Source: Trissonchulus latispiculum
Taxonomy: Eukaryota > Nematoda > Enoplea > Enoplida > Ironidae
Assembly: GCA_030248195.1 (NCBI GenBank)
Contig: JASAND010017645.1
Coordinates: forward strand, 30,423-94,422
DNA length: 64,000 bases
Direction of reading: 5' to 3'
The number at the start of each line of letters is the position of its first letter. Within the stretch, counting starts at the first letter, position 1. A program made the position numbers and the translations under genes. The notes below the pieces were generated by a model that was given only the letters and a program-made list of their open reading frames with translations, was not told the DNA's origin and made no database searches. Shown here piece by piece: positions 19,980 through 43,589 of this stretch.

Positions 19980-22193
19980 CTATCTAATGCATTCCACCCA
20001 TAGTATATTTGGTTTTATATTTACAAAAATCTGATTAATTTTCAATATTTTATCATAATTCCTACAAAATTTTAATTTCAATTTTCGTTTTGAATAATTT
20101 TTTGTTAACAAATAATTTACCAATCTTTTTAACTTAAATACAAATGACAGTTTTGTACTACATATCCTTGCATATCTTAATACCTCATTAACATAAACTG
20201 TATAGGCTACATTAGAAGAGAAATTACCGTACAAATTAGGAAATTTTACTACGTGAAAGTTATAATCGTCAGTTTTATCAAATACTTCACACATAAACTT
20301 ATTATTAATAATATCTAATTTAATGTCTAATACATTTGCTGCATAATCATTTAAATTTTCTCTATTTAAAATTAAACATAGAGGATAAATTTCCATAAAA
20401 ATACTATCGAAAAATCCCTTATCATTAAGAATTGTGATATCATCAATATATCTGAATACATATCTTAACTTTCTAAGCGCATTAAAATTATGCTTATATA
20501 ACATTCTTTTCATAAAAATATATTCATAATAAAATAAAAATAAATTAGCTAAATACGGAGCACAATCAGTCCCCATAGGTATTCCACATTTTTGTTTGAA
20601 CATCATGTCTCCACATTCAATATACAAATTATCCAATAACCAACCAATATTCGATATCAAATCCACAGCAGTTAATTTATTTCCTGTATTAGTATTACAA
20701 CCCCATCTAGCACTTCCTTTGTATAGAATTATACACTTGTTTTTAGTATTTGCAAAAGCTAATTTTATTAAGTAACCTAACGCCTCTTTTATTTCCTTAT
20801 GCGGAATACTTGTATACAGTTGACCGAAATCATACGTATAAACTGATTTAGCAGACTGTCTTTTATTTATAGAATGTATTGCATCTAATATAACACTAGA
20901 TCTATCAATTATCCAAAATAAATTGGCATTATTTTTAGTATTTTGGTAAATAGCATTAGTATACATTCTTAATCTATTTAATATCAATTTTAAAGCACAA
21001 CCAATTCCCTTTGACACAGGTTTTGTAATTGCGCTGTGACTGGCTACTATAAATCTGTGTTTAATTGGATTCTTATGAAATTTAGGAATCATATATATAA
21101 ATGGGAATTGTTTACAGGTTTCTGTAACATTCCAGCCCATACAGTACATATCTTCACATAAACTATTAATTAAAATATCTTTATTAACTTCGACATATTC
21201 GTACACATCACTTACAAAATTTATATTATTATTATTACTAGTATCAACTTTAATTCCTAATTCATTTAAAATAACACTAATGTAATGTTGTTTGCAGATT
21301 ATAGCATAGGTTTGATTTGCTTTATCAATTGGAGTAAATACATAATTCTTTTGTAACTTACGGAGTTCATTTTTACTACTTTCTATATTCAACTGTTTAT
21401 TTATTGTAAAGTTACCATACCTATTTAACTGACTTTCAACCATTTCATATATTCTACTGCTCCACAAATATAAATTACACTTATCAATCTCCGATACTTT
21501 CTTATTAATACCTAAACTTTTAATATACCTACTCAAGCCTATTTTCACACTTTCCATAGTTTTATTCTTATCATTATCTTTAGCCATGCGATATCTACAT
21601 CCCAATGCAAGTAATCGACTTATTACCTCATTATCTACAACACTTACATCGCCAGTAATTATGTGCCTATGATAATTATCAACATAATTTATTTTTTCTT
21701 TACACATACAAGTATCATTTTGTTTTAAGAAATCCATAACTTTTAAATTACTAACCGTTTCCTTATAATTAAATATTAAACTTGACGTACTATTATCGTA
21801 TTTATATATGATCATAGGTCTAGCATATAACTTATTTTCCAATGGCCAATAGGTTGAAGCATAGTCAAAAACAATTCGGAAATCAATAATATCAAATAAT
21901 TTATTAGCGTAATGAAATAAAATTTTAGGTTTCTTAGGCTGTTTCAACTTTTCATTGTTAATACTACTCTTATACATTTTAGTCAGGCACAAATCTATAA
22001 GCAACTCTACCATATCACCACTATCTTGTTTATCTGAAATAAGCAAAAACAACTTTCTTATTTCCGATCTGCGTAGACCAAAAATAATTTTAGTAATGCT
22101 TTTTCGATATTCTAATTTATCTCTTATAGTACTATCTAGTAGCTCTTTATATAACTCATCAGCATTTATCCTTAACTGTGTGCTGGAAGGTTT
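19980..22193 (-). CDS. Penelope-type reverse transcriptase
   Basis: The frame opens at 22193 and stops at 19980; the first ATG in it is at 22013. The RT core has motif A YDFGQLYTSIPH (Asp), motif B GIPMGTDCAPYLANLFL, and motif C RYIDDI with the two catalytic aspartates. Upstream, a conserved C-x-C...HIITGDV segment and the PIDKANQ region match the N-terminal RT extension of Naiad-like elements. It copies element RNA at a target nick or telomeric end. The 5' end overlaps the endonuclease frame by about 22 bases in another phase, so the two products are either fused by a -1 shift or made separately. No internal stops. Confidence 0.9.
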   Translation of the reverse strand, partial: KPSSTQLRINADELYKELLDSTIRDKLEYRKSITKIIFGLRRSEIRKLFLLISDKQDSGDMVELLIDLCLTKMYKSSINNEKLKQPKKPKILFHYANKLFDIIDFRIVFDYASTYWPLENKLYARPMIIYKYDNSTSSLIFNYKETVSNLKVMDFLKQNDTCMCKEKINYVDNYHRHIITGDVSVVDNEVISRLLALGCRYRMAKDNDKNKTMESVKIGLSRYIKSLGINKKVSEIDKCNLYLWSSRIYEMVESQLNRYGNFTINKQLNIESSKNELRKLQKNYVFTPIDKANQTYAIICKQHYISVILNELGIKVDTSNNNNINFVSDVYEYVEVNKDILINSLCEDMYCMGWNVTETCKQFPFIYMIPKFHKNPIKHRFIVASHSAITKPVSKGIGCALKLILNRLRMYTNAIYQNTKNNANLFWIIDRSSVILDAIHSINKRQSAKSVYTYDFGQLYTSIPHKEIKEALGYLIKLAFANTKNKCIILYKGSARWGCNTNTGNKLTAVDLISNIGWLLDNLYIECGDMMFKQKCGIPMGTDCAPYLANLFLFYYEYIFMKRMLYKHNFNALRKLRYVFRYIDDITILNDKGFFDSIFMEIYPLCLILNRENLNDYAANVLDIKLDIINNKFMCEVFDKTDDYNFHVVKFPNLYGNFSSNVAYTVYVNEVLRYARICSTKLSFVFKLKRLVNYLLTKNYSKRKLKLKFCRNYDKILKINQIFVNIKPNILWVECIR

Positions 22194-22798
22194 TTATAAC
22201 CTCTAGATCTTGTTCTTTGAGATTTACTAAAATTACAATACACAGGTAAATTATTATTTTCGTTTCTTAAATAATCATTAAGTCCATACGGGTATTTTGT
22301 TTTAAGTAATTTAATCCAGTATTCCTCCCTATCTAATAAATTCTGTCTATTAATAGACTCATCATCCACGTAATGAACCTTTTCAATAATTTTAAGACTG
22401 AATTTTTTACAAGCATTATTTTGAAAATGTGATACTAAATTAAAACACCCAGACTGCCCTGAACCACAAATAGCTCTAATATGTTCCATCATTCTTATCC
22501 TGAATTTACGCTTAGTTTGTCCTACATACTGCATACCGCATTCCATACATGTAATTAAATAAATCACATTCGTTGTGTCACAAGTTAAAGATAGTTTATC
22601 ATTGTTAATTACATTGTAGTTCCACGACTTATACGTATTCTTAAATGTTTGCTGAGTGTCCGTACGACAGCAAACGATGCATCTCGCTCTATCACAGGTA
22701 ATATATTTAGACGCAGGTGAAAAACCACCCGAGCATGACGCCTCACCCAAAGCGACATGGGTGGACACGGAGAAGGTTAGGTTTTTAAAAGGGACCAA
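22172..22798 (-). CDS. GIY-YIG endonuclease of the Penelope-like element
   Basis: About 208 residues from the frame opening. A cysteine-rich segment (CDRARCIVCC) precedes the nuclease fold. VIYLITC and QYVGQTKRKF provide the GIY and YIG strands, followed by the Arg/His/Glu set in RIRMMEH and the metal-binding glutamate in DREEYWIKLL. No ATG starts the open stretch. Translation may start by splicing from an upstream exon or at a non-ATG codon. Its place upstream of the RT defines the permuted architecture. Confidence 0.88.
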   Translation of the reverse strand: MVPFKNLTFSVSTHVALGEASCSGGFSPASKYITCDRARCIVCCRTDTQQTFKNTYKSWNYNVINNDKLSLTCDTTNVIYLITCMECGMQYVGQTKRKFRIRMMEHIRAICGSGQSGCFNLVSHFQNNACKKFSLKIIEKVHYVDDESINRQNLLDREEYWIKLLKTKYPYGLNDYLRNENNNLPVYCNFSKSQRTRSRGYKNLPAHS

Positions 22799-26305: not shown

Positions 26306-28250
26306 GACCCACGCCGGCCACCCACCCACAGGCCGCTGGGGCCACTTTTTGTGGGTGGCATAATGACAAAAGTTGATCGCCTCGCCAAGGGCTTTCATTG
26401 GACACCAAACTTGACCACTTTTGAAGACTTTCATTTTTGACCCACACCGGACCCACTGTGGGTGGGCCACCCACCCACAGGCCGCTGGGGCCACTTTTTG
26501 TGGGTGGCATAATGACAAAAGTTGATCGCCTCGCCAAGGGCTTTCATTTGACACCAAATTTGACCACTTTTGAAGACTTTCATTTTTGACCCACACAGGA
26601 CCCACTGTGGGTGGGCCACCCACCCACAGGCCGCTGGGGCCACTTTTGTGGCTGGTATAATGACAAAACTTGATCGCCTCGCCAAGGGCTTTCATTTGAT
26701 ACCAAACTTGACCACTTTTGAAGACTTTCATTTTTGACCCACACCGGACCCACTGTGGGTGGGCCACCCACCCACAGGCCGCTGGGGCCACTTTTTGTGG
26801 GTGGCATAATGACAAAAGTTGATCGCCTCGCCAAGGGCTTTCATTGGACACCAAACTTGACCACTTTTGAAGACTTTCATTTTTGACCCACACCGGACCC
26901 ACTGTGGGTGGGCCACCCACCCACAGGCCGCTGGGGCCACTTTTTGTGGGTGGCATAATGACAAAGGTTGATCGCCTCGCTAAGGGCTTTCATTTGATAC
27001 CAAACTTGACCACTTTTGAAGACTTTCATTTTTGACCCACACCGGACCCACTGTGGGTGGGCCACCCACCCACAGGCCGCTGGGGCCACTTTTTGTGGGT
27101 GGCATAATGACAAAAGTTGATCGCCTCGCCAAGGGCTTTCATTTGATACCAAACTTGACCACTTTTGAAGACTTTCATTTTTGACCCACACCGGACCCAC
27201 TGTGGGTGGGCCACCCACCCACAGGCCGCTGGGGCCACTTTTTGTGGGTGGCATAATGACAAAAGTTGATCGCCTCGCCAAGGGCTTTCATTTGACACCA
27301 AACTTGACCACTTTTGAAGACTTTCATTTTTGACCCACACAGTGTTTTTGTTTTGCTCAGACACTTTTGCGCTCTTCTGCGCACTGCCTCAAAATTGTTT
27401 GCGCCATTTGTTGAAAAAGTATGCATAGCCGAAAAATGCTATAATTTATTTTAAATTACGATTTCTCACGTATTAGCAATTGTAGGACATTTCTAGAATT
27501 TTCAGAGCGGCCGACAGCATATGTCTCACACAAAATACACTAAAAAGTGACTGGCGTGAGCGGGAGCATGGACCAAAAAACCATTCAACGGGGGGAGTCT
27601 GGGAACCGTATCCTCTAGAAGCTGCAAAATTCTTAAAAATATCAAACAGCCCCGCTAGGGTAACTCTAACTGTTGATCAGTACTCTGTGTATATTTAGTT
27701 CCATTGACAGTCCCTGGGCAGCAGATGTGTACGTGTATTTGCTTAACAAATATTAATTTGCAATGAGTTGCATACCCTAGCCACGTTAGCTTATGCCAAG
27801 CTAATGTTCGCTTTCAACTTAAAGATGTGGTAGCAGGTAAATGCGTGTTCTGGGAGCGCCTGCAAGAAAAATTAAAAAATTTTTGTATAATTGCGAACAA
27901 CGAGCAAATTTTGCCAGCTTCTTCTGTGAATCATCTTAGTACTTCCTTTTTCTGTCTCTGGAAAAAAGTGCGCGCGCGTGCGCACAAGCCCAAAATTTTT
28001 TGCTCATTTCAGGAAAAAAGTGTGTCATTGCGCACTTTTTTGAGCAAATAAAAAACAGAGGACCCACACCGGACCCACTGTGGGTGGGTCACCCACCCAC
28101 AGGCCGCTGGGGCCACTTTTTGTGGGTGGCATAATGACAAAAGTTGATCGCCTCGCCAAGGGCTTTCATTTGATACCAAACTTGACCACTTTTGAAGACT
28201 TTCATTTTTGACCCACACCGGGCCCACTGTGGGTGGGCGCTGTGGGTCAG
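26306..28250 (-). repeat. 149-bp satellite array (interrupted)
   Basis: Monomer starts at 26306, 26439, 26588, 26736, 26885, 27034, 27183 and 27332 give a period of 149 (one 148, one shortened by 16). The array resumes at 28061-28250 after an inserted hAT-like element. Each unit contains the palindromic CCACCCACCCACAGG region. Long frames across it exist because the monomer lacks stops in several minus-strand frames; they are not genes. Confidence 0.92.
27340..28060. mobile_element. hAT-like element inserted in the satellite
   Basis: GACCCACA occurs on both sides (27332-27339 and 28061-28068), an exact 8-bp TSD made from satellite sequence. Ends are CAGTGTTTTTGTTTTGCTC and, inverted, CTCTGTTTTTTATTTGCTC. 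Removing it restores a continuous satellite monomer. There is no transposase frame. Confidence 0.85.
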
Positions 28251-28602
28251 GGGTCACATCCACCGACCTCAGCAGTATGCTCATCGTTTTCAGCGACCCC
28301 GATTTACTATATATGGGTACCACCCCAACGCCGAAAAACGCCATTTTTAGTGACTTTTAGGCCATTTCTAGTAAAAGTGGGACTTAGAAACTTTTCGTGA
28401 AAACAGGTAAAAAATGCAAAGTTTGGGCCCATCTCCTGAAAGCTACAGAGCGAAATTAAAAAATCCCCCTCGTTACATTCCGCGCATAGTCCGAAATATT
28501 CAAATAAAATAAACCAAACCGTTCTAGCTGCTAGCCTGTGAAAAAAGTCGATCACAACCGAAGTGCCAAAATAGCGAAAGTCCGACTTTGGGGCCTTGGC
28601 AC
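28251..28602. other. Unique-looking spacer
   Basis: Nothing recognised between the satellite end and the next MITE. Confidence 0.35.
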
Positions 28603-29602: not shown

Positions 29603-30145
29603 TGTAACGAGCGCATTTCATAACTTACGTAACTTAAACCGACGTAAGTAACAAGTTTCCCGCTAAAAGCTGAACTCTAGCTAACTTAAGTTAAACCTTA
29701 ATTTCAGCCTGAGTAACTGCTCAAGAAAGATAGATCATCCCGCTCGCGAAACTATAAAGCGTGCTGCAGCAGCGAGCTGCAGTCAGTTGAGGAAAGTGGC
29801 TGGTTGGGTTCACTCGCTCTACTTCTCTCTCTCTCCTCTCTTAGGTTGGAAGGTAGGCTGGCTGGTTGGTTGGATTTGAGCAGTTACTCAGAGAGTTCAC
29901 TTCTCCTTCTTCTTTTCATTCGAACAGGTCTAGGTTTGGTCAGGTGGTTTGGCAGGAAAGCCTGTAGTCATTTGTGACTTTTGGTTGGTTTTTGTACACA
30001 TTATACGGAGTGGGCCATAGCCCTTTTGCGTTTATTACCTTAGCCTTTTAGGTTTATTATAAGCTCTGATTGGCTGACAGAGCTTCGGTATTTTGGGTGA
30101 AAGCTCTGCAAGGACAGGTGTTTAGGATCTATACACCTTGTCACA
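29603..30145 (+). repeat. 5' LTR
   Basis: Starts TGTAACGAG and ends TGTCACA. It is aligned base for base with 42517-43058 except the patch at about 29957-30030. A polypyrimidine run (CTCTCTCTCTCC) lies at about 29825. Confidence 0.93.
29753..29788 (+). promoter_or_regulatory. LTR core promoter: TATA box and TCAGT initiator
   Basis: TATAAA at 29753-29758 and TCAGTT at 29783-29788 place the likely start at A29785, 32 bases from the first T of the TATA box. This is the normal TATA-Inr spacing and an arthropod-type initiator. It implies U3 29603-29784 and R/U5 from 29785. The same sites recur in the 3' LTR (TATAAA at 42667-42672). Confidence 0.65.
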
Positions 30146-30146
30146 T

Positions 30147-30784: not shown

Positions 30785-33700
30785 ATGGCTTTTAATCCGG
30801 ATCGAGGTCCACCTGGAGACGTAACAGGCGCTGGCTTGGACAGCACGGAGCCTCACGGAAGCGGTGAAATGCTAAACCCCGTTTTAGGTAACATAAAACC
30901 CTTACTGGGTGGGAATAAGGAAACGTCCGCCCGATTCTTAATTAAGGATATACCTGTGTTCGAGGGTAAATTAGGGGAAGACTTTAGGGAGTGGTTGCTC
31001 ATGTTTGAACGTATAGGAGCAGCAAACGGCTGGCATTCTTCCGAAAAGGCACTTTACCTCCCCGCTTTTCTCAGGGGGTTTGCGGCAGAGAAATGGGATG
31101 ATTTACCTGCTGGGGTACAGGCGAGTTGGTCTAGCGTTAAACCCGCTCTTTTAGAGAAACTGTGCCCTGTGGAGGTTACTAGTGTGCATGTGGCTGACTT
31201 GCATAACCGTAAACAGAAGAGGACTGAATCTGTTTACGAGTATGCAAGGGAAATACAAAAAATTGCTTTAAAAGCTTACCCTGATTTTAAAATAACCGTT
31301 CGTGAAAGGTTAATGAAGGATGTGTTTATGAATGGTCTTTTGCCACAGTTAAGGCAGCTAGTCATGAATCAACGTCCCGGTTCTTTTGAGGAAGCGGTGA
31401 GCATCGGCCACGAGCAGGAAAGTATACTAAATACATTGAACTCTGAAAATACTGCTCAGGTGGTCAACGCAATTACGGAATCGGTGGACGTTGATTCTAG
31501 ACTTAAATTAATGGAGGCTACGATGGTAAAATTACAGCAAACTTTAGAAAAATTAGATACGGCTGCGGGAAGGAAAAGCACAGATTTTCGAACAGGTGAT
31601 AGCTTAAGTTTCCAAAGGCAATCATTGGACCGGTTCTCTCGGACGTCGGACGGTAGACCCAAGTGTTTCTTCTGTGGTCGTCCTGGGCATATCCAAGCGC
31701 GCTGTCGTCAGCGGCTAGGATTCCAAGGCCAGAGAACGAACCCTCACCAAGTCAGAAATATTGGTAACATTCCTTCGGGTATGAGAAGGAATGCTACCGG
31801 GAGAAATAGTCAGAATTTCGTTAACGCGATGGTCAATGACAATTTTAGAGGTGATTTTAGAGAAAGTAATGTAAGTAATAACTATCCTCCTATTTGCAGC
31901 ATGGCTACAGAATCACAAGCAAGTCCGGTGACAGATTCCACTATCGAAGAACTCAGAGAGCAGAATCAACGCCTGATCCAGAGGTTGCTCACCAACAGTG
32001 GTTACGCACCACCGACGGAGTCTGCAGTGCGGGTACTGAAGACCGTCACTTCACCTTCTTATGCGGAACACCTTCGTCAAAAAGAAAGGGCTAAGGAAAG
32101 GGAATATTTGGCAGACCAGTCACTGTATGACAGTGAATTAGATTCCGATCTGGGGTTAGGTCCCCTTTTTACGGAAGGAGGGCTATTCTTTGATTCCCCC
32201 AGCAGAACTAGTGGACGGAAGGTCGGAAGAAGTACCCACCCCCAAGGCAGGAAGGACGGTTTGTTTCTGTCTGAAAACAGGATTCGGCGTATCAGGGAAG
32301 CCGACCCTGAGAGTAGTTCCACCTCTCCCACCAGAACCAACCGTACCCTACCCAATGTCTCCGTGCGTAGGCGGGAATCCCCGGGTTATGGGGATCGTCT
32401 GAACTATGGCGCAGTCCTGATTAATCCGGTTCTGTCAGATAGGCTGGAAGAGATCAATGCTGGTTTACGGCGGCCCCTAATATCTCTATTTGAGGAAATG
32501 TTCGATGCAGATATAAGGATTATCCGGAGAGGTCTAACTGAAGGATTTCAGCTGGACCTGGTGGAGGTTCGGAGCTACAGCCGAGAGAAGGTACTGGATT
32601 GTATAACCAAGATCAACGAAGAGGATGACTTCTTCGCAAAACTGGTGTACGACGGCCTTAGGAAACGAGCGAAAGAGGGTAACATGTGGGAACGGATGAC
32701 GCCTCCGCCTGTAGGAAAGGATATGCTGATCAAGGCTAGGGTTGATGGACACTCTGTTACCGCTCTTGTCGATACTGGAGCGACTTCGTCAGTCCTATCA
32801 GCAGACCTAGTGCAGAAACATGGGTCTCTCCGGACTAAACTATGCAGGCTGGTTAAGAACGAAGCTGTTACAGCTTTGGGAAACCGAGTCCGATTCCTTG
32901 GCGTAGTTTATTGTTGCGTGACGGTAGGTCCTTACCATACCCCCATAGGATTCCAGGTTATTCAGAGTGGATGCCCAGTGGAATGCATACTGGGTACTGA
33001 TGTGCTTGAAGCGATGGGATCTGTAACCATCGATTTAGCTAACCGAAAAATCAGCATCAAAGGAACGGATGTGGATTTGGTGAATACAGAACTGGTAACA
33101 CCGTCCATAAGGATGATAAGTACGCCCCCGAGAATGAAACTTCCCCCCGGCATTTCTGTGCCACAAGAAGAGTCGGCTGAGGTGGAGTCTGAAACCCAAA
33201 CCCCAAATCTTCAGCAGAAACAGCAGATTCTGGAGATCACGTCTCCTTCTATTCAGCTGCTAGCCTGTTACGGTGAACAACTTGGTAGGTTGGGATACAC
33301 GTGCTTGACACCACACCTCCTACCCCTCGATCTCCCAGGTAGTGTGACTGTGATGAGGCACACGGTTACTGGGAAACAGTTGTGGGCCAGGCAAGTTTCT
33401 GAATTGGCCATAACCCTGTACCTGAGGCTCCAGAATAAGCTACATCGGCAGAACCAGTCTCTGTTGGCCATCACAGAACCTGCGTCTGAGGCTGTTCTAC
33501 CTTCAGATGTTCTGTGCATTGCTCTGAAAGCACAGAGTCCTGTGCCAACCAAGTTCCTTCTGTTGTACCCTAGTTTCTTCTTGACTCTACACGACTATAT
33601 CAGAATCTACGGTTATTTGGACGAAGGAAAGGCAAAGAACTTGTTCCGGCAGATGGTAGCAGCGGTAGAACGAGCCCATGATGCCAATATCATTGTTCGA

Positions 33701-36580
33701 GACCTGTCGTTGTCCTCTTGGGTATTCTCTGACAGCGAAATGGCTACCCTGAGACTTCGATATTTAGATTCTGCCTACATCGGTAATTCTCAGCTGGGAG
33801 ATGGCATAGAGAACCGATTGGCTTGTCTACCATACGCAAGCCCTGATCTCTTGCAAATGGAACAACCTACGTACAGTGGCAAAGCGGCTGACATGTGGGC
33901 TCTAGGAATTGCACTATATGTAATGGTCACTGGCAAATACCCATATGAAGGTCAGAACTCTCCGGAAGTCATATCCCAGATTGTTAGCGGGAAGGTGGAA
34001 TTCCCGGAAATTCCGATATTAAACAAGGAAACGGAAACCTTTATTAAGGAAATACTACAGGAACAACCGGACTTACGTCCTACCGCAAGGACATTGCTCC
34101 GCGCTAATTGGCTGGAAATACCGAAAGACCAGGATGTGACCAGCACAGATTACACGCCATGGTCCACAGAAACAGGGAAGGAAAACTGGCTATCTGCTGA
34201 GGATACCGGCCTGGTGGTTACAGTATACATAAACGGTTTCTCTATCCAGGCTGCCTTGGACTTCAGCAGTTCTCATTCCTATCTAGCCTCACAAAGGGTC
34301 GATCCGGACATGATCCTTACTACACCTGTTGTGGTCACGTGGACATTGCCAGACGTACTGAAACAATGCATAGTGGAAGGATCCGTACTGGTCACCCTTG
34401 CAGCTGGTGGGTTCCACGGTCTGGTGCCATTACACATCGTTTCAGGTCAAGACGATGGTTTCTGTTTGCTGGGAAAGGATATAATCCGCATGTTCGGTAA
34501 TATCAAGGTTAACTTGAGTTGGAACAGCGTGGAAATCATGGGACAGGAAACCCATTCAGATTCCTTCCCACTGCCGTTCCTTGACCTTGACACAATTGCG
34601 GCTGTCTCAACAACTGACCGATTGTTTCCCCCGATAGTACTGGGAAGGATTAATGATACCCCAGTGGAAATGCTGGTTGATACCGGCAGCCCGAGTACGT
34701 TGATTAAATCTGTCCTGGTAGGCAAAGCCAAGGTACAACCCACAAAGGCCATGCTAAAATCTATTACAGGACAGGCGGTCCCAGTTGTCGGAGAAACCGA
34801 GGTCGATATCTGCATCCAGAAAAACAGTTTCTTGCACAAGGCAAGGGTGGTTAGCTCTGGACCGTATGACGTTGTCCTTGGATCAGATTTCCTTCGGCAA
34901 AACGGGGCTAGTATTGATATGAACCTTGGTAAATTAAACTTGGGCAACGTAGCCGCGGATCTGTATGCAAATCCACAGACCGACGTTATTTCGTCAGTCC
35001 ACCTGGTCGGTGACTACGCTATTCCTCCTCGCAGCCAAGTCATTGTCACAGGTGAGGTATGGGGATTTACGAGAGGAATTAATTATATACTAACCCCCCA
35101 CGCTCAGTTACCTCTCAAATACGGATTGCTAGGAGCTAGGGAGCTAGTGGAAGTGGTGGAAAATAGGGTACCTTTCTTACTGATTAATATTTCGGAGGAG
35201 GTCATAACTGTACCATCTGGTTTGTGTTTAGGTGCGCTAGAAGCTGTGGAAGAACGCGATCAAATTGCGGCTGTGGTTGCCACGGATAAGGATTCATCAG
35301 ATGACGGTCAAGAGAACTGGCTCAAATCCCAACTAAAGCTCCCGGACGGATTAACAGCAGAGGAATCAGCTGAATTGACAAGGTTGGTACTGCAATATTC
35401 AGACTGCTTTTCTAGATATGATGGAGATCTAGGGAGAACAGAGGTAGTGAAGCATCACATTGATACTAGGGATAGTGCACCAATAGCACAACGAGCTTAT
35501 CGTGTACCCTACCAGCAACGGGAGGTAATTGCTAAAGAAATTTCGGGTTTGTTAGAACGAGGGTTAATCAGACCTTCAGCCAGTCCTTGGGCATCCCCCA
35601 TTGTACTTGTAAAGAAGAAAGATAATAGCGACCGTATGTGCATAGACTTTCGTAAGTTAAATGCAGTAACGGTGCGCGACACTTACCCCCTCCCCAGAGT
35701 TGACGAAGTTCTGGATAATATAGGTGGCGCGAAATATTTTACTAGCCTGGATATGGCTTCGGGATACCATCAGATCGAGATGGACGAAGCATCTAAGGAA
35801 AAGACTGCTTTCGTCTGCCATCTCGGTCTGTATGAGTATAATGTCCTGCCCTTTGGTCTCACCAATGCACCCGCAACCTTCCAAAGAATGATTGATTTTA
35901 TAATGTCGGGTCTTATAGGTGTAGGCTGTATGGTTTACTTGGATGATATTTTGATTTATTCTAAAGATTTTTCGGAGCATATGGGTCATCTCAGAGCTGT
36001 GTTTGAAAGGCTGCAAGGCAGCGGTTTGAAATTAAAACTTCGAAAATGTCAATTTTGCCAAAAGCAAGTAGAATTTTTGGGGCATGTGGTTACGCCTGCC
36101 GGTATTTTACCGTGCCAGGATAAAATTCAGTCTGTTAAACAGTTTGCTATCCCCAAAACTGTCAAACAGGTAAGACAATTTATAGGGTTAGTGTCTTACT
36201 ACAGGCGGTTTGTGGAAGGTTTTGCTACTATTGCAGCCCCATTGAACTCGCTTCTAAAGAAAACTGAGCATTTTGCTTGGACTAAGGAGTGTCAGGAGGC
36301 GTTTGAGACCCTAAGGTCACGCCTGATGACCGCTCCTATCCTTCGATACCCCAACTTTGCAGCCCTCTTCGTCCTGTTTACTGATGCCAGTAACGTTCGA
36401 ATCGGCGCAGCCTGTCGCAGGAAGATGAAAAAGGAGCCGACTATGTCATTGCGTATGCTTCGAGGGCACTGTCGGCGACCGAAAGGAAATACTCCACGAC
36501 GGAAAAGGAAGCACTCGCTGTGGTTTGGGCTGTTAAGCATTTCCGACCGTATCTCTATGGCCGACGTTTCAAACTGGTGA
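30785..36580 (+). CDS. Gag-protease-pseudokinase-RT polyprotein, interrupted in RNase H
   Basis: A 1931-residue frame with no gag-pol stop. Capsid region about 54-215; CCHC knuckle C294, C297, H302, C307; helical stretch 386-402; possible death-fold 541-632; protease-like unit 1 at 655-757 (VDTGA 662-666, ILGTD 735-739); Tribbles-like pseudokinase about 823-1113; degenerate protease-like unit 1142-1253 (DFSS in place of DTGS); protease 2 at 1284-1386 (VDTGS 1298-1302, VLGSD 1364-1368); RT about 1560-1800 (VYLDD 1717-1721, FGLTNAPATF). RNase H begins near 1858. At about 36405-36412 homology passes to the next frame, so the last about 55 residues of this frame are out of register. The break could be a mutation or a sequencing error, as the rest is open. 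Confidence 0.92.
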   Translation: MAFNPDRGPPGDVTGAGLDSTEPHGSGEMLNPVLGNIKPLLGGNKETSARFLIKDIPVFEGKLGEDFREWLLMFERIGAANGWHSSEKALYLPAFLRGFAAEKWDDLPAGVQASWSSVKPALLEKLCPVEVTSVHVADLHNRKQKRTESVYEYAREIQKIALKAYPDFKITVRERLMKDVFMNGLLPQLRQLVMNQRPGSFEEAVSIGHEQESILNTLNSENTAQVVNAITESVDVDSRLKLMEATMVKLQQTLEKLDTAAGRKSTDFRTGDSLSFQRQSLDRFSRTSDGRPKCFFCGRPGHIQARCRQRLGFQGQRTNPHQVRNIGNIPSGMRRNATGRNSQNFVNAMVNDNFRGDFRESNVSNNYPPICSMATESQASPVTDSTIEELREQNQRLIQRLLTNSGYAPPTESAVRVLKTVTSPSYAEHLRQKERAKEREYLADQSLYDSELDSDLGLGPLFTEGGLFFDSPSRTSGRKVGRSTHPQGRKDGLFLSENRIRRIREADPESSSTSPTRTNRTLPNVSVRRRESPGYGDRLNYGAVLINPVLSDRLEEINAGLRRPLISLFEEMFDADIRIIRRGLTEGFQLDLVEVRSYSREKVLDCITKINEEDDFFAKLVYDGLRKRAKEGNMWERMTPPPVGKDMLIKARVDGHSVTALVDTGATSSVLSADLVQKHGSLRTKLCRLVKNEAVTALGNRVRFLGVVYCCVTVGPYHTPIGFQVIQSGCPVECILGTDVLEAMGSVTIDLANRKISIKGTDVDLVNTELVTPSIRMISTPPRMKLPPGISVPQEESAEVESETQTPNLQQKQQILEITSPSIQLLACYGEQLGRLGYTCLTPHLLPLDLPGSVTVMRHTVTGKQLWARQVSELAITLYLRLQNKLHRQNQSLLAITEPASEAVLPSDVLCIALKAQSPVPTKFLLLYPSFFLTLHDYIRIYGYLDEGKAKNLFRQMVAAVERAHDANIIVRDLSLSSWVFSDSEMATLRLRYLDSAYIGNSQLGDGIENRLACLPYASPDLLQMEQPTYSGKAADMWALGIALYVMVTGKYPYEGQNSPEVISQIVSGKVEFPEIPILNKETETFIKEILQEQPDLRPTARTLLRANWLEIPKDQDVTSTDYTPWSTETGKENWLSAEDTGLVVTVYINGFSIQAALDFSSSHSYLASQRVDPDMILTTPVVVTWTLPDVLKQCIVEGSVLVTLAAGGFHGLVPLHIVSGQDDGFCLLGKDIIRMFGNIKVNLSWNSVEIMGQETHSDSFPLPFLDLDTIAAVSTTDRLFPPIVLGRINDTPVEMLVDTGSPSTLIKSVLVGKAKVQPTKAMLKSITGQAVPVVGETEVDICIQKNSFLHKARVVSSGPYDVVLGSDFLRQNGASIDMNLGKLNLGNVAADLYANPQTDVISSVHLVGDYAIPPRSQVIVTGEVWGFTRGINYILTPHAQLPLKYGLLGARELVEVVENRVPFLLINISEEVITVPSGLCLGALEAVEERDQIAAVVATDKDSSDDGQENWLKSQLKLPDGLTAEESAELTRLVLQYSDCFSRYDGDLGRTEVVKHHIDTRDSAPIAQRAYRVPYQQREVIAKEISGLLERGLIRPSASPWASPIVLVKKKDNSDRMCIDFRKLNAVTVRDTYPLPRVDEVLDNIGGAKYFTSLDMASGYHQIEMDEASKEKTAFVCHLGLYEYNVLPFGLTNAPATFQRMIDFIMSGLIGVGCMVYLDDILIYSKDFSEHMGHLRAVFERLQGSGLKLKLRKCQFCQKQVEFLGHVVTPAGILPCQDKIQSVKQFAIPKTVKQVRQFIGLVSYYRRFVEGFATIAAPLNSLLKKTEHFAWTKECQEAFETLRSRLMTAPILRYPNFAALFVLFTDASNVRIGAACRRKMKKEPTMSLRMLRGHCRRPKGNTPRRKRKHSLWFGLLSISDRISMADVSNW

Positions 36581-39500
36581 CGGATCATCAACCCCTGAAG
36601 TTCATAATGACTACTAGAAGCCCTTCAGGGCGCCTGGCTCGTTGGGCTTTATCCCTTCAGGAATACGACTTCGAAGTTATCTATCGGAGTGGAAGAATCA
36701 ACGATAACGCGGACGTGCTTTCACGACTACCATATGAGTCTGACTTGGATGACCAGACGAATGACGTCGCGGTTGTAGCGATTACGCTGCCAGATACGGA
36801 TGGAATAGCGGGAGAGGATAATGGCGACGGCGGAGATGAACATTCGCATAAACCCCTCATGGACCGGATAAAGGAAGAGCAAAATCAATGTCCTGAGTTG
36901 GAACCTCTGGTGGTTTATGTGTCCAAAGGCATACTTCCCGATCAGAACAAGCTGGCACGCAAACTCCTTCTCGAAAAGGACGGTTTCATTCTAGAGGAAG
37001 GCATTCTTTATCGAATATGGCGTGACACGAGTGCGAAACGACATCAGAGCGTCTGTCGCCAGATCGTTGTTCCATTATCGCTGAGAAAGGAAGTATTAGA
37101 AACTTATCACGACGACGTCTTTGCTGGCCACCTGGGTGTGGAAAGGACGTTCCTGAAAATACGCAGGCACTTCTATTGGGACCGCATGTACACGGACGTG
37201 GTGGAATGGTGCAAATCTTGTTTGGCCTGTCAAGGACGAAAAATGCCTGTGGTGAAGTGTAAGGCACCCCTGAAATCATTACCCATAACTGGCCCCTTCC
37301 ACCGTGTAGCGGTCGATTGCTTGGGTCCATTCCCGTCGTCGGATTCTGGAAACAAGCACATTGTTGTGTTTAGTGATTACTTCACTAAATGGCCCGAAGC
37401 ATTCGCTGTTCCAGATATTAAAGCGAATACAATAGCGCGACTGTTTATCGATGGCATCGTCTGCCGTCATGGCGCCCCGGATTCGCTGTTATCAGACAGA
37501 GGCACCAATTTCTTGTCAGATGTGGTAAAAGCGGTGTGCAGGTTAACAAATACAAGGAAGTTCTCCACTACGGCCTACCACCCCCAAACAGATGGCTTGG
37601 TGGAACGATTCAATCGAACATTGGCCACGATGCTGTCAATGTATGTCAGTTCGAACCACAAGGATTGGGATGTCTTTCTACCGTATGTTTTGTTTGCATA
37701 CAGGTGCGCCCCGCATGAGTCTACTGGGGAGAGCCCTTTTTACCTGCTGTATGCACGAGAACCCCTCATGCCTTTCACCAGTTGCCTACTACAAACTAAC
37801 GAGGAGATCAGCTTGGAAGGCTATGTGGCAGATCTAGCCCAGCGGACTAAAGAGATTAACGATCTCGTGAAGGCTAATGTCTTGACAGCGCAAGAACGCC
37901 AGAGAAGCAACTATAACAAGGGCGTTCGTAACGCCATATACCAACTAGGTGATCAAGTCCTCTTGTATGTGCCCATCGTACAAAAAGGAAAGAGTCCTAA
38001 GCTAACACACAAGTGGCATGGACCTTATGTGATTATGGAACGCTTGTCAAATCTAAATTATAGGGTGAAAAGGCGCTTCTCAGGAAAAGATAAAATAAAG
38101 GTTGTGCACGTAAACAGGCTTAAGCCTTACGGTGCCACTCCTAGGTTACGACAGGAAGCTGTGCCTAATGCAGATGCAACAGGAGACGTGCAAGATGAAT
38201 CCGCAGGATTAAGTGAACTTCAGGAGGCAGGAGAAGAGTCGGTAGACGTCGCTTCTGAACCGACGGATCACGTAAGGACTGACGAGAAGTCAGCGGCAGA
38301 ACGATGGAACATTGGAGATGTGGTTTGGGCAAAACTTCGAGGATTTCCAAGTTGGCCGGCACGTATTATCGACCCTGCTACACTCCCTAATACTACACCT
38401 CCCTCTTCCAAAGGTATATGGAAAGCAGTGTTATTTTTTAATAGCACTGATCATGCCTACGTCAAGGAGGAAAATCTTAAACCTTGGGAGTATCCAGAAT
38501 CACACGGTGGATACAAATCCAAAGGCTTGTTGAAAGCAATTGATGAAGCCAACGCGGCAACCGCTAATGGATCTGGAAACGATGCTCCAGCACCTTCACT
38601 GCCTCAACGAGTTGGAACGATTATGCAGCTATTCCTAATACTGTTGCTGTTGGCTCTAAGGGTATCGGGAGAGGAGTTAGGAATGGTGACATCCGATGGC
38701 GTTCGCTTGAATCCCCACTATGGTGTACTGTTTCGACAAATCGGAAAGTTCGACTATAGCCGCGATCACCTTAACCACTTTATTTATGTGCCATTCATTA
38801 CTAAGGTGCCAGATCCGTTGGTTATCCCTGCCTGTCCGGTACCTCCGAAAAATGAGAGCTATTTGTTCTCGTGGATTCACACCCTCCAGCATCAACTTTG
38901 TCACCTCTTGGACAGTTTGCAAGAATCAGCTAATGCGACTCATGCAGCTTTGGTTGTAGAACTGCAACTTTTATCGCAAGATATGCAGGATCTTCTCTTG
39001 GTTCAACGACGGTCGTCCAGGCCCAAACGAGGCTTGCTTCAAGGTATAGCCTGCCTTGTGGAATCTGTTTTTGGAGGATGTCAGGGCAGTGGTGTGGATG
39101 CCCAACATATTCGTACGGCTCTAACTGCACTGGATACCCGAGTTTCGGGATTGGCAGCCGAGCTGGTTCAGACAAAAGGCGAGCTGGTATCCCTTTCCAA
39201 ACTAACCATGAGCGGATTCAAGAACGTGGATGCAAAATTCGATATCATGGCACGCAGCGTTGAGCACTTGCAACGAATGCAGTCTACGCTCGCGTCTACC
39301 ATGGCACAACTTAACCAGTCTTTCGTCTTCTTTGGAGAGCTCGCCCGGACTCAAACGGCAACACTGGTGTCGATGATGGCGTGGATAACTCATGTTATGA
39401 ATTGGCATGATCAGGTGCAGGAAGCCTATGGGTTAATAACTGGCTTGACCCAACTGAAACGAGGGATCTTATCGCCAACATTACTTGCTCCTCGAACCTT

Positions 39501-40734
39501 GAGGAAAATGTTGGATGGCGTTTCGGAACAACTGAATAACGTAACCAACCCCAGAACGTTGCTCCATCCGCCGACTGAGCTTTACCGCTACTACACGGAA
39601 AGGATGGTAACTACAGTGTCTGGTAAAACCGACGCGTTCCTGATTGGTCTGAGCATTCCCATCACGCAACCTGAATTCCTCTATGACCTATGGCAGATCT
39701 TCAGCATGCCCGTCCAGATTAGTCAGTCGGGATTACTTTTATATAACAACATGGATGAAGACATGCTGGGACTTAATAGTGTAACGGATACATTCTTTGT
39801 AGGCGATACAGTCGATCTTCGGAGTTGCCATAGTTCTTCAATCATTCGTTGCCCATTTACCTACCCACGTTACAGCAGTTCCAAGAACAGTTGCATCTTG
39901 AAACTGTTTCAGGGATCTGCTGGTGAGGACGTACATCAATTATGTAACTGGACTATTGAACAATCTTACCCGACACCTAAAGTCCTGAATATTAAAGACA
40001 GCAAATGGTTTATCGCTCAGTCAGGATCGAATTGGTCGTTGCATTGTCAAATCCCTACCCCCGATCCATGGCCTACAAAATGCGACCGCTGTATAGTGGA
40101 TATACCATGCGGTTGCAGTCTAAGCATATCCAGTATGGTGCTAACTAGCACGAGTTCTTGTGAGGGAGAGGTTACTCTTGCGAGGTCCCTCAACTTCACA
40201 ATCTATCATAATCCCCTTAAATTTGCCCTGTATCCAACTTACCCTAATTTAGCAGTGTTGCAGCAGCAACTGTTTCAGCCCATCCCCGTCCTAAAGGCAC
40301 ACTGGAAAAACTTTAGCTCCAATTTAGCAGAATTAATCCACCGCACTGGAGGAAAATTACACATGCAAATGGTAAATTTCTCGAATGGAATCCAAATGGA
40401 ACGGCTGAGGTTTGAAAGGTTGGATAATGCCAGACATAAAGAAGTGAACGATGCTATCCAGGCTATCAGAAATGGAGATAATGGAACCTCATGGCAGATA
40501 TGGGTGCTTGCAGCGGGAGAATTCATCCTATCAGTGTTGCTGGTGGGCTTGATATTACGCATATTGACGTTCAATCCGATCAATCAAGCGTTACCGGTTC
40601 CTATATCTGTGCAAACCCCACCCCATGTGGAAGCCGCGTCGACGTTAAAGGGAATGTCGAGCACGGATGTGGAAATGGTGTTTCGCGCCATGAAAGGCAA
40701 CGATGGTAGTGCGCTGCACCCCGAGGTGCAGTGA
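36409..40734 (+). CDS. RNase H-integrase-PWWP-Env frame
   Basis: Homology in this frame begins near 36409; the first ATG is 36520 (1404 residues from there). RNase H end 1-70. Integrase zinc motif H197, H204, C231, C234 and DD35E core D266, D326, E362. GPY/F module 499-537 (WHGPY, VNRLKPY). PWWP domain 596-657 with PSWP at 610-613 and cage aromatics W603, W612, F640. Env starts M702 (ATG 38623): signal peptide 702-718, furin-type site RPKR ending at 837, a hydrophobic Gly-rich segment after it, glycosylation sequons, TM 1327-1349 and a short tail. There is no stop between Pol and Env. Normal Env production would need splicing. Env resembles errantivirus/baculovirus F-type fusion proteins in layout. 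Confidence 0.92.
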   Translation, partial: SLSQEDEKGADYVIAYASRALSATERKYSTTEKEALAVVWAVKHFRPYLYGRRFKLVTDHQPLKFIMTTRSPSGRLARWALSLQEYDFEVIYRSGRINDNADVLSRLPYESDLDDQTNDVAVVAITLPDTDGIAGEDNGDGGDEHSHKPLMDRIKEEQNQCPELEPLVVYVSKGILPDQNKLARKLLLEKDGFILEEGILYRIWRDTSAKRHQSVCRQIVVPLSLRKEVLETYHDDVFAGHLGVERTFLKIRRHFYWDRMYTDVVEWCKSCLACQGRKMPVVKCKAPLKSLPITGPFHRVAVDCLGPFPSSDSGNKHIVVFSDYFTKWPEAFAVPDIKANTIARLFIDGIVCRHGAPDSLLSDRGTNFLSDVVKAVCRLTNTRKFSTTAYHPQTDGLVERFNRTLATMLSMYVSSNHKDWDVFLPYVLFAYRCAPHESTGESPFYLLYAREPLMPFTSCLLQTNEEISLEGYVADLAQRTKEINDLVKANVLTAQERQRSNYNKGVRNAIYQLGDQVLLYVPIVQKGKSPKLTHKWHGPYVIMERLSNLNYRVKRRFSGKDKIKVVHVNRLKPYGATPRLRQEAVPNADATGDVQDESAGLSELQEAGEESVDVASEPTDHVRTDEKSAAERWNIGDVVWAKLRGFPSWPARIIDPATLPNTTPPSSKGIWKAVLFFNSTDHAYVKEENLKPWEYPESHGGYKSKGLLKAIDEANAATANGSGNDAPAPSLPQRVGTIMQLFLILLLLALRVSGEELGMVTSDGVRLNPHYGVLFRQIGKFDYSRDHLNHFIYVPFITKVPDPLVIPACPVPPKNESYLFSWIHTLQHQLCHLLDSLQESANATHAALVVELQLLSQDMQDLLLVQRRSSRPKRGLLQGIACLVESVFGGCQGSGVDAQHIRTALTALDTRVSGLAAELVQTKGELVSLSKLTMSGFKNVDAKFDIMARSVEHLQRMQSTLASTMAQLNQSFVFFGELARTQTATLVSMMAWITHVMNWHDQVQEAYGLITGLTQLKRGILSPTLLAPRTLRKMLDGVSEQLNNVTNPRTLLHPPTELYRYYTERMVTTVSGKTDAFLIGLSIPITQPEFLYDLWQIFSMPVQISQSGLLLYNNMDEDMLGLNSVTDTFFVGDTVDLRSCHSSSIIRCPFTYPRYSSSKNSCILKLFQGSAGEDVHQLCNWTIEQSYPTPKVLNIKDSKWFIAQSGSNWSLHCQIPTPDPWPTKCDRCIVDIPCGCSLSISSMVLTSTSSCEGEVTLARSLNFTIYHNPLKFALYPTYPNLAVLQQQLFQPIPVLKAHWKNFSSNLAELIHRTGGKLHMQMVNFSNGIQMERLRFERLDNARHKEVNDAIQAIRNGDNGTSWQIWVLAAGEFILSVLLVGLILRILTFNPINQALPVPISVQTPPHVEAASTLKGMSSTDVEMVFRAMKGNDGSALHPEVQ

Positions 40735-42516: not shown

Positions 42517-43058
42517 TGTAACGAGCGCATTTCATAACTTACGTAACTTAAACCGACGTAAGTAACAAGTTTCCCGCTAAAAGCTGAACTCTAGCTAACT
42601 TAAGTTAAACCTTAATTTCAGCCTGAGTAACTGCTCAAGAAAGATAGATCATCCCGCTCGCGAAACTATAAAGCGTGCTGCAGCAGCGAGCTGCAGTCAG
42701 TTGAGGAAAGTGGCTGGTTGGGTTCACTCGCTCTACTTCTCTCTCTCTCCTCTCTTAGGTTGGAAGGTAGGCTGGCTGGTTGGTTGGATTTGAGCAGTTA
42801 CTCAGAGAGTTCACTTCTCCTTCTTCTTTTCATTCGAACAGGTCTAGGTTTGGTCAGGTGGTTTGGCAGGAGAGTCTGGGGTTTTTTGTGTTTTTTGGGG
42901 GGTTTTTGTACACTTTATAGGGGGGGGCCCATAGCCTTTTTGTGTTTATTACCTTAGCCTTTTAGGTTTATTATAAGCTCTGATTGGCTGACAGAGCTTC
43001 GGTATTTTGGGTGAAAGTCTGCAAGGACAGGTGTTTAGGATCTATACACCCTGTCACA
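42517..43058 (+). repeat. 3' LTR
   Basis: It matches the 5' LTR except 42871-42944, where the sequence degenerates into G and T homopolymers, one missing base near 43019 and one substitution near the end. Confidence 0.92.
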
Positions 43059-43589
43059 TATGTATTGGAGAAAATTTTTAAAATCCGGTTTTCGCGAATT
43101 CCGGGAATTGAGTGCATTTTCACGAGTTCGTTCTATTACAAAAGTTGTTCAGATCGATAAGAATTTTCGAATGATACCCATCTTGAGGGTATTGGAGGAA
43201 ATTTTTAAAATCCGGTAATTTAGAAAACCCGGAATTCCGGAAATTGGGTGCATTTTCGTGAAAAGCTTCTAAGAGCAAAAATGTGTAGCGGGATCAGCTC
43301 TATTCGACTGTGAGAACCAAATTTTGATTGCAATAAAAATTTGGCGAAAAACTAAAAATTTTAAATTTTCCGCGAATGAAATCCGGAATTTCGGAATTTT
43401 TCGGATTTTCGAAATCTCGGGTTCCTGAGGATTCGAAAAATATATACATTGTATAGGCTACCTTCAAATGATAACTCAGGACAGCCGCTCACATTTCTGT
43501 TCCAAGAATTTTTGGTCAGACTTTAGATCTCAGCCTCGAAAACTGGTAGAAACTAAGTTTAAGCTAAAAATTGCTAGTCGCGGTCTCGC
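43059..43589. other. Non-coding; about 125-bp imperfect tandem duplication at its start
   Basis: The block ATTGGAG(G)AAAATTTTTAAAATCCGG occurs at about 43065 and 43190 with similar following sequence. Nothing else recognised. Confidence 0.45.

Follow-up and report, generated by a model that had tools for sequence, protein, structure and literature searches.

A Tribbles-like pseudokinase domain between the proteases of a Ty3/gypsy-type Gag-Pol polyprotein in the nematode Trissonchulus latispiculum

In the genome of the nematode Trissonchulus latispiculum, the Gag-Pol polyprotein of an env-bearing Ty3/gypsy-type element contains a domain akin to the Tribbles pseudokinases, lying in frame between aspartic proteases; the same position is occupied by such a domain in three divergent families, and differences among related copies bear the mark of constraint on its reading frame. 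To a fuller reading, according to which a captured and catalytically dead Tribbles-like domain became a fixed part of Gag-Pol, from which it would be freed to act as a mimic of Tribbles proteins, we assign a probability of roughly one half. The DNA analysed, referred to below as the window, is a stretch of 64,000 nucleotides (assembly GCA_030248195.1, contig JASAND010017645.1, positions 30,423 to 94,422); its positions 33251-34123 on the forward strand are translated into 291 amino acids with zero stops, which are residues 823-1113 of a Gag-Pol frame of 1931 amino acids (30785-36580). The original prediction, made from the sequence alone, had placed a Tribbles-like pseudokinase in frame and without stops within Gag-Pol, as the translation confirms, and all the motifs quoted in it are present in the translated segment.

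The features of the element are collected in Table 1. Between the LTRs the order PR-RT-RNase H-IN is found, the RNase H being split in the window copy. Gag, for which Pfam gave zero matches in ORF1, was named from its zinc knuckle and from its similarity to the Gag of two related loci (L017 and L021), while the PF13975 score of PR1 was obtained on a separate piece around this domain. The degenerate PR2, in which a Pfam match is absent, scores 18.7 bits against a custom model of four protease domains (PR1 and PR3 of the window and of locus L040, described below), the best of 999 shuffles reaching 11.5 bits. The Env-like region has zero Pfam matches of its own and was recognised by tblastn, since 11 of the 20 loci fetched from the assembly have regions similar to it (21-28%); in the window, no kinase is found between the PWWP domain and this region. 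ORFs of 250-340 amino acids, comparable with ORF3, come after Env also in several other elements.

Table 1: Features of the element and of its pseudokinase domain (positions in the window).
Feature	Position	Strand	Details
5' LTR	29603..30146	+	direct repeat with 42517-43059
ORF1, 1931 aa	30785..36580	+	Gag-PR1-pseudokinase-degenerate PR2-PR3-RT-RNase H start
Gag CCHC zinc knuckle	31661..31711	+	residues 293-309; PF00098 E 0.0034, just below curated cut-off
PR1 aspartic protease	32729..33010	+	residues 649-742, DTGA at 663; PF13975 1.1e-11
Tribbles-like pseudokinase domain	33251..34123	+	ORF1 residues 823-1113; PF00069, TRIB1/TRIB2
PR2, degenerate protease-like	34205..34543	+	about residues 1141-1253; DFSS replaces DTGS
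PR3 aspartic protease	34631..34915	+	residues 1283-1377, DTGS at 1299; PF00077
Reverse transcriptase	35609..36088	+	residues 1609-1768; PF00078 3.1e-38
RNase H, first half	36278..36433	+	ORF1 residues 1832-1883; PF17919 positions 1-52
ORF2, 1404 aa	36520..40734	+	RNase H end-integrase-PWWP-Env-like
RNase H, second half	36523..36666	+	ORF2 residues 2-49; PF17917 positions 58-105
Integrase, zinc-binding and core	37069..37584	+	PF17921 2.7e-22; PF00665 6.5e-5, below cut-off
PWWP after integrase	38314..38559	+	ORF2 residues 599-680; PF00855 2.6e-16
Env-like protein	38620..40731 (start approximate)	+	tblastn similarity
ORF3, 349 aa	41057..42106	+	no Pfam match
3' LTR	42517..43059	+	direct repeat with 5' LTR

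In general layout, on which the likeness rests, the element resembles the env-bearing Ty3/gypsy elements (errantivirus-type Metaviridae), sharing with them LTRs, Gag, PR, RT, RNase H, integrase and an Env-like protein; it differs by the pseudokinase between protease copies, by the extra protease copies themselves and by the PWWP domain that follows the integrase. A PWWP domain is found after the integrase also in L015, L016, L017, L020-L022, L024, L026 and L027. HIV integration targeting uses the PWWP domain of LEDGF, and the domain following the integrase may, by analogy, be a built-in counterpart of it; a literature search on this arrangement found no description in the titles and opening parts of the papers listed.

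The element had been taken to be an otherwise intact and young provirus, a description that is not supported: the window copy is broken, because its RNase H is divided between the reading frames of ORF1 and ORF2. Of the 543 aligned positions of the two LTRs, 525 agree and 18 are mismatched, and there is one single-base gap; as all but one of the mismatches (17) fall within a single block of 72 bases (29958-30029 and 42872-42943), they look like the outcome of an exchange between variant LTRs rather than of age. In the flanks of the LTRs, inspected by eye only, no target-site duplication of 4-6 bases was seen. Elsewhere in the window, adjacent ORFs on the reverse strand (19983-22798), matching RT (5.5e-6, below the cut-off) and GIY-YIG (1.5e-5), probably represent a Penelope-like element, and a unit of about 149 bases is repeated in tandem over 26316-28386.

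The kinase fold and the Tribbles affinity of the domain are supported by Pfam, by the sequences of the PDB and by a fold search. Pfam recognises Pkinase in segment residues 113-288 (E 4e-22), corresponding to model positions 85-263; in the PDB, where 640 distinct sequences matched at E up to 1e-5 and the best 60 of the 640 were examined, TRIB2 (1.6e-30) and TRIB1 (8.5e-30) are followed by MARK2 at 3.3e-23. With the predicted model as query, Foldseek ranked TRIB2 first and TRIB1 second and third, so that the top structural match is a kinase fold, as had been anticipated. This model, built by AlphaFold2 on an alignment of ten sequences, has a mean pLDDT of 67 and a pTM of 0.66, the C-lobe lying mostly at pLDDT 80-95 and the N-lobe and activation segment being poor. 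The segment had been described as a kinase C-lobe; the kinase assignment stands, and the segment includes a degenerate N-lobe as well, with strands predicted at low confidence at segment residues 32-36, 43-50, 89-94 and 101-106. Degenerate HRD and DFG motifs, SGKAAD(M/V)W and G(K/R)YP are common to the window domain and TRIB1/TRIB2, from which it is distinguished by its location in Gag-Pol and by its very degenerate N-lobe.

Active kinases have HRD...N and DFG at their catalytic positions. The catalytic loop of the window domain reads VRDLSLSSW, in which the Asp is kept and other residues stand in place of His, Lys and Asn, and YLD is found at the DFG position when the domain is aligned with the other element kinases; the loss of catalytic residues (VRD...W, YLD) had been correctly foreseen, and the domain is predicted to be catalytically dead. 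Tribbles proteins keep the VAIK Lys, their ATP binding being weak or absent; by eye, an Arg (WARQV) occupies this position in the window, in a part of the N-lobe where alignment and model are poor (pLDDT about 57-60). The HPWF region, which in Tribbles binds MEK1 and is found in TRIB1/TRIB2 and in the host-like Tribbles, is not matched in the window, where RANWLE is read instead.

Tribbles proteins also carry a C-terminal COP1-binding motif of the DQxVP type. A script scan of about 20 residues after the domain found no COP1-type motif in the window, and the same scan identified DQTVPV in a fish Tribbles-like protein (P0003); none was seen by eye in residues 1113-1285 of ORF1. A more permissive pattern, [DE]..[VIL]P, was absent from the tail regions scanned in the window, L040 and L041; it was matched twice in the tail of L026 and once in the window, there inside the domain. 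Because the canonical COP1-binding tail was not found, the domain is, on the strength of its sequence, Tribbles-like rather than a full Tribbles, and the idea of a plain scaffold for ubiquitin ligases in the manner of Tribbles, entertained at the outset, is not borne out.

Copies of the same family were sought in the 734-Mb assembly by a DNA search with positions 32600-36500 of the window (40 of 101 candidates scored), giving at least 43 matches, one of which is the window itself. The kinase region was matched on contigs C13111 (80%) and C13054 (74%), each of which also has a 70-base piece at 89%; the other matches cover the RT region at 65-79%, and a single full-length copy of the family is present among the matches listed (40 of 101 candidates). 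These two relatives, the internally deleted loci L013 and L014, keep the leader, pieces of Gag and the kinase, with eight stops each within the kinase match; they are 92% identical over 2.7 kb, and share deletions together with an insertion, about 254-268 bases long, at an identical site. An intron at residue 30 was considered for these two loci and dropped, since the DNA comparison shows an insertion within deletion derivatives. The original prediction depended on the presence of the domain in further copies of the family, and other copies do carry it.

In columns away from gaps (140/144/145 sites), the differences from the window on which L013 and L014 agree number 15, 13 and 41 at the first, second and third codon positions, respectively (p 4e-5); when every aligned column is counted, the figures are 33/24/53 (p 0.002). 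The changes confined to L014 number 5/6/3 away from gaps and 11/13/13 over all columns; those private to L013 are 0 and 5, respectively. The third-position excess of the agreed differences indicates that the pseudokinase reading frame was constrained before L013 and L014 decayed.

The order PR1-kinase-PR recurs in two other loci, L040 (contig C3918) and L041 (contig C17532), in open frames of 2162 and 1844 amino acids, respectively; the first protease of L041 was found by tblastn (1.7e-15), Pfam giving one protease stretch there. When the assembly was searched with the PR1-kinase-PR part of L040 (best 77 of 1391 candidates), a match running from PR1 through the kinase to PR3 was obtained at three loci among the matches listed, namely L040 itself, C17532 (46% over residues 1-567 of the query) and the window (31% over 1-437 and 43% over 462-567). 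The kinases of L040 and L041 are 31-35% identical to that of the window, and their partner-binding surfaces may therefore have changed; that of L040 scores 87 bits against TRIB2 and 79 bits against CaMKII in the PDB, a small lead. In the RT tree, drawn without L041, whose RT lies outside the fetched piece, the window, L040 (partial RT) and L036 form one lineage (100/99), separate from eight rows (96/96) belonging to elements in which, as described below, the kinase lies between integrase and Env (IN-kinase-Env). L036 and contigs such as C16044 and C13706 are the nearest RT relatives of the window, the contig of L036 starting too near the RT to cover the kinase position. Adjoining the IN-kinase-Env rows are L038 and L039, which have a single protease and, in the fetched pieces, which end in integrase, no kinase match. 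A one-off capture is ruled out by the three PR1-kinase-PR3 loci and by the retention of the kinase in L013 and L014.

Related domains are widespread in the assembly, where the kinase search gave at least 134 places at E up to 0.001 (134 of 357 candidates); stretches of 7-10 kb were fetched at the 20 places ranked next after the window. In nine of these (L015, L016, L017, L020, L021, L022, L024, L026 and L027) an integrase lies upstream and an Env downstream on the same strand, defining a second Ty3/gypsy lineage with the related domain between integrase-PWWP and Env; two more (L023 and L028) have only Env on the same strand, seven (L018, L019, L025, L029, L030, L031 and L032) are Polinton-like, with a PolB-type ORF, and the remaining two are L013 and L014. 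The PolB assignment is supported by a Pfam match in L031 (4.1e-9); Pfam did not confirm it in L018 or L019, for which it rests on the 41% similarity of L031 to an ORF of L019 and on an rve integrase. Polintons/Mavericks are carriers of accessory genes, and here seven of 20 loci pair a Tribbles-like ORF with a PolB-type ORF; unlike the window element, these are DNA elements in which the kinase is a separate gene (two in tandem in L030) and not a domain of a polyprotein. An ORF of 370 amino acids, Tribbles-like, is accompanied by integrase-like sequence, recognised by eye, in L042. The single insertion originally envisaged thus gives way to several classes of mobile element holding such domains in one genome.

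TRIB1 or TRIB2 is the best PDB match of the kinases of L018, L021, L040 and L042, and a short motif such as SQIFYVQNH recurs in the tails of several IN-kinase-Env members. Among 11 chosen pairs, PR-kinase-PR members being in none of them, dN/dS is 0.10-0.31 in eight and saturated in the other three. Open frames of 370 amino acids recur at many kinase places of the assembly. The reverse strand of L042 (3-1256) contains, beside the Tribbles-like ORF, a 3'-5' exonuclease-like ORF (PF01612 4.5e-5, 23.7 bits against a cut-off of 23.6); in L044 an ORF with a NADAR domain (2-640; 5.4e-33) adjoins the Tribbles-like ORF, and a similar short NADAR-like ORF was noticed by eye in L007, within L018.

The best database relative of the element kinases is P0003, a Tribbles-like protein of the fish Gymnothorax javanicus, named hypothetical protein. 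As a query it matches 122 places in the assembly, many of the matches being short, at 37-53%, from about residue 193 on, which suggests a large host Tribbles family. Among six places fetched, four (L046, L048, L049 and L051) have a match that breaks off and resumes at one common position, as an intron would cause, and two (L047 and L050) have only its downstream part. The tails of L046 and L049, judged by eye, are without the vertebrate COP1 motif and have EMYLP...F at their ends, so that a ligase motif peculiar to the lineage is conceivable. A mitochondrial fragment in the nuclear DNA makes sense when translated with the invertebrate code (code 5), in keeping with an invertebrate host.

A kinase tree sets 29 rows (the element kinases, four host-like rows and P0003) apart from five other kinases with support of 100/98, no known MARK/AMPK-type row being in the outgroup. 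The IN-kinase-Env members form one clade (99/96), and the window kinase adjoins that of the Polinton-like L018 (94/89), the placement being unsure on such long branches; its top identity among the 33 other tree rows is 35%, to the host-like L051, L013 and L014 being excluded from both the tree and this maximum. A single origin of all element kinases (24 element rows) is weakly rejected (p 0.037), as is a single clade of the 15 retroelement rows (p 0.0275); one clade of the three PR-kinase-PR rows is not rejected (p 0.091). Repeated capture is likely, as far as these sequences can tell. We lean, with somewhat better than even confidence, to the view that unrelated mobile elements of one animal lineage, comprising at least three Ty3/gypsy arrangements and Polinton-like elements, have a Tribbles-like pseudokinase in common as an accessory module, probably taken up more than once and kept under selection, in a host with several intron-containing Tribbles copies and perhaps many more.

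As to function, we propose that an env-bearing Ty3/gypsy-type element captured a Tribbles-like kinase domain, which would have become fixed within Gag-Pol between two aspartic proteases. Its site between two DTG proteases suggests that these may cut it free from the polyprotein, and its translation within Gag-Pol that it could be packaged together with reverse transcriptase and integrase; in the producer cell and in newly entered cells it would then act as a Tribbles mimic, holding partners of Tribbles through its C-lobe, without phosphotransfer, candidate partners being degron-bearing transcription factors or kinases of the MAPK pathway. As the canonical COP1 tail was not found, the domain would more probably compete with host Tribbles complexes, or serve as their decoy, than recruit a ligase. 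The latter idea, that by an unrecognised motif the domain brings a host restriction factor to an E3 ligase and so has this factor degraded, nevertheless retains an appreciable minority share of our confidence: vertebrate Tribbles are COP1 adaptors, the accessory proteins of other retroviruses offer a parallel, and the tail motif common to several IN-kinase-Env members could be read in this sense, although the permissive motif was not found in the tail regions scanned in the window, L040 and L041.

Less probable than ligase recruitment is a role without any host target, in which the pseudokinase would be a spacer or switch governing the pairing of PR1 with PR3 and the timing of cutting. Its place between two DTG proteases in all three families, the degenerate third protease added in the window, and the single protease of the gypsy loci whose fetched pieces are kinase-negative (L038 and L039) are all consistent with such a role; in the IN-kinase-Env lineage, however, the related domain is distant from PR, and in Polinton-like elements it occurs by itself, and a spacer would leave the recurrence of a Tribbles-like fold unexplained. 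Baculovirus PK2, a kinase-derived lobe-swap inhibitor of eIF2alpha kinases, provides another model, according to which the domain would insert into host stress kinases, eIF2alpha kinases for instance; the far better preservation of the C-lobe than of the N-lobe agrees with it, but an N-lobe remnant is present and eIF2alpha kinases are absent among the best 60 of 640 PDB matches, and we hold it improbable. Finally, a chance in-frame capture devoid of any role would fit the one full-length family copy among the matches listed (40 of 101 candidates) and the long branch of the window kinase; it is strongly disfavoured by the codon-position bias, by the low dN/dS of relatives and by the same position being kept in three divergent families.

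A pseudokinase inside the Pol region of a gypsy-type element had been claimed to be undescribed, and no description of one was found in the proteins or in the portions of the literature searched: for Tribbles or pseudokinases in retroelements, Polintons/Mavericks, errantiviruses and viruses, none appears in titles and opening parts of the papers listed, and the main text of the Troyka paper (PMC12440569) does not contain the word 'kinase'. Searches of long proteins gave one weak match each for the kinase region of the window (P0002, Lucilia sericata, 29%) and for the PWWP-kinase region of L021, and a search with an alignment of 12 kinases gave 13 matches, P0003 and other kinases; a near-identical host protein was not among the matches. 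Since such searches depend on 5-residue words in common and on comparable lengths, they could miss relatives. Scanning IMG/VR with the 12-sequence alignment, six stretches matched a pattern and none was confirmed.

Acute transforming retroviruses carry captured cellular kinases, and resemble the present element in that a gene of cellular kinase type lies within the reading frame of a retroelement; the window domain differs from theirs in being predicted dead, kept beside gag/pol across divergent families, and constrained. In retroviral oncogene capture the gene is nearly identical to the host gene and replaces viral sequence; here, in contrast, the top identity is 35% and Gag, PR, RT, RNase H (split) and integrase are all recognisable. 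The data suggest that such elements have taken over a host signalling switch time and again and retained it. Retroviruses do not usually keep captured host genes for long; here a pseudokinase fold that has no catalytic function to maintain has been retained in replication polyproteins through divergence to 31-35% identity, and such long retention, together with the related domains in DNA elements, points to a binding partner worth controlling. The divergent sequences constitute a natural set for asking which surfaces of Tribbles matter, and offer an example on which to examine what mobile elements would gain by targeting the pathways of Tribbles (cell cycle, C/EBP, MAPK); if the shared module is real, it would imply an arms race, or a common dependence, around a host pseudokinase pathway.
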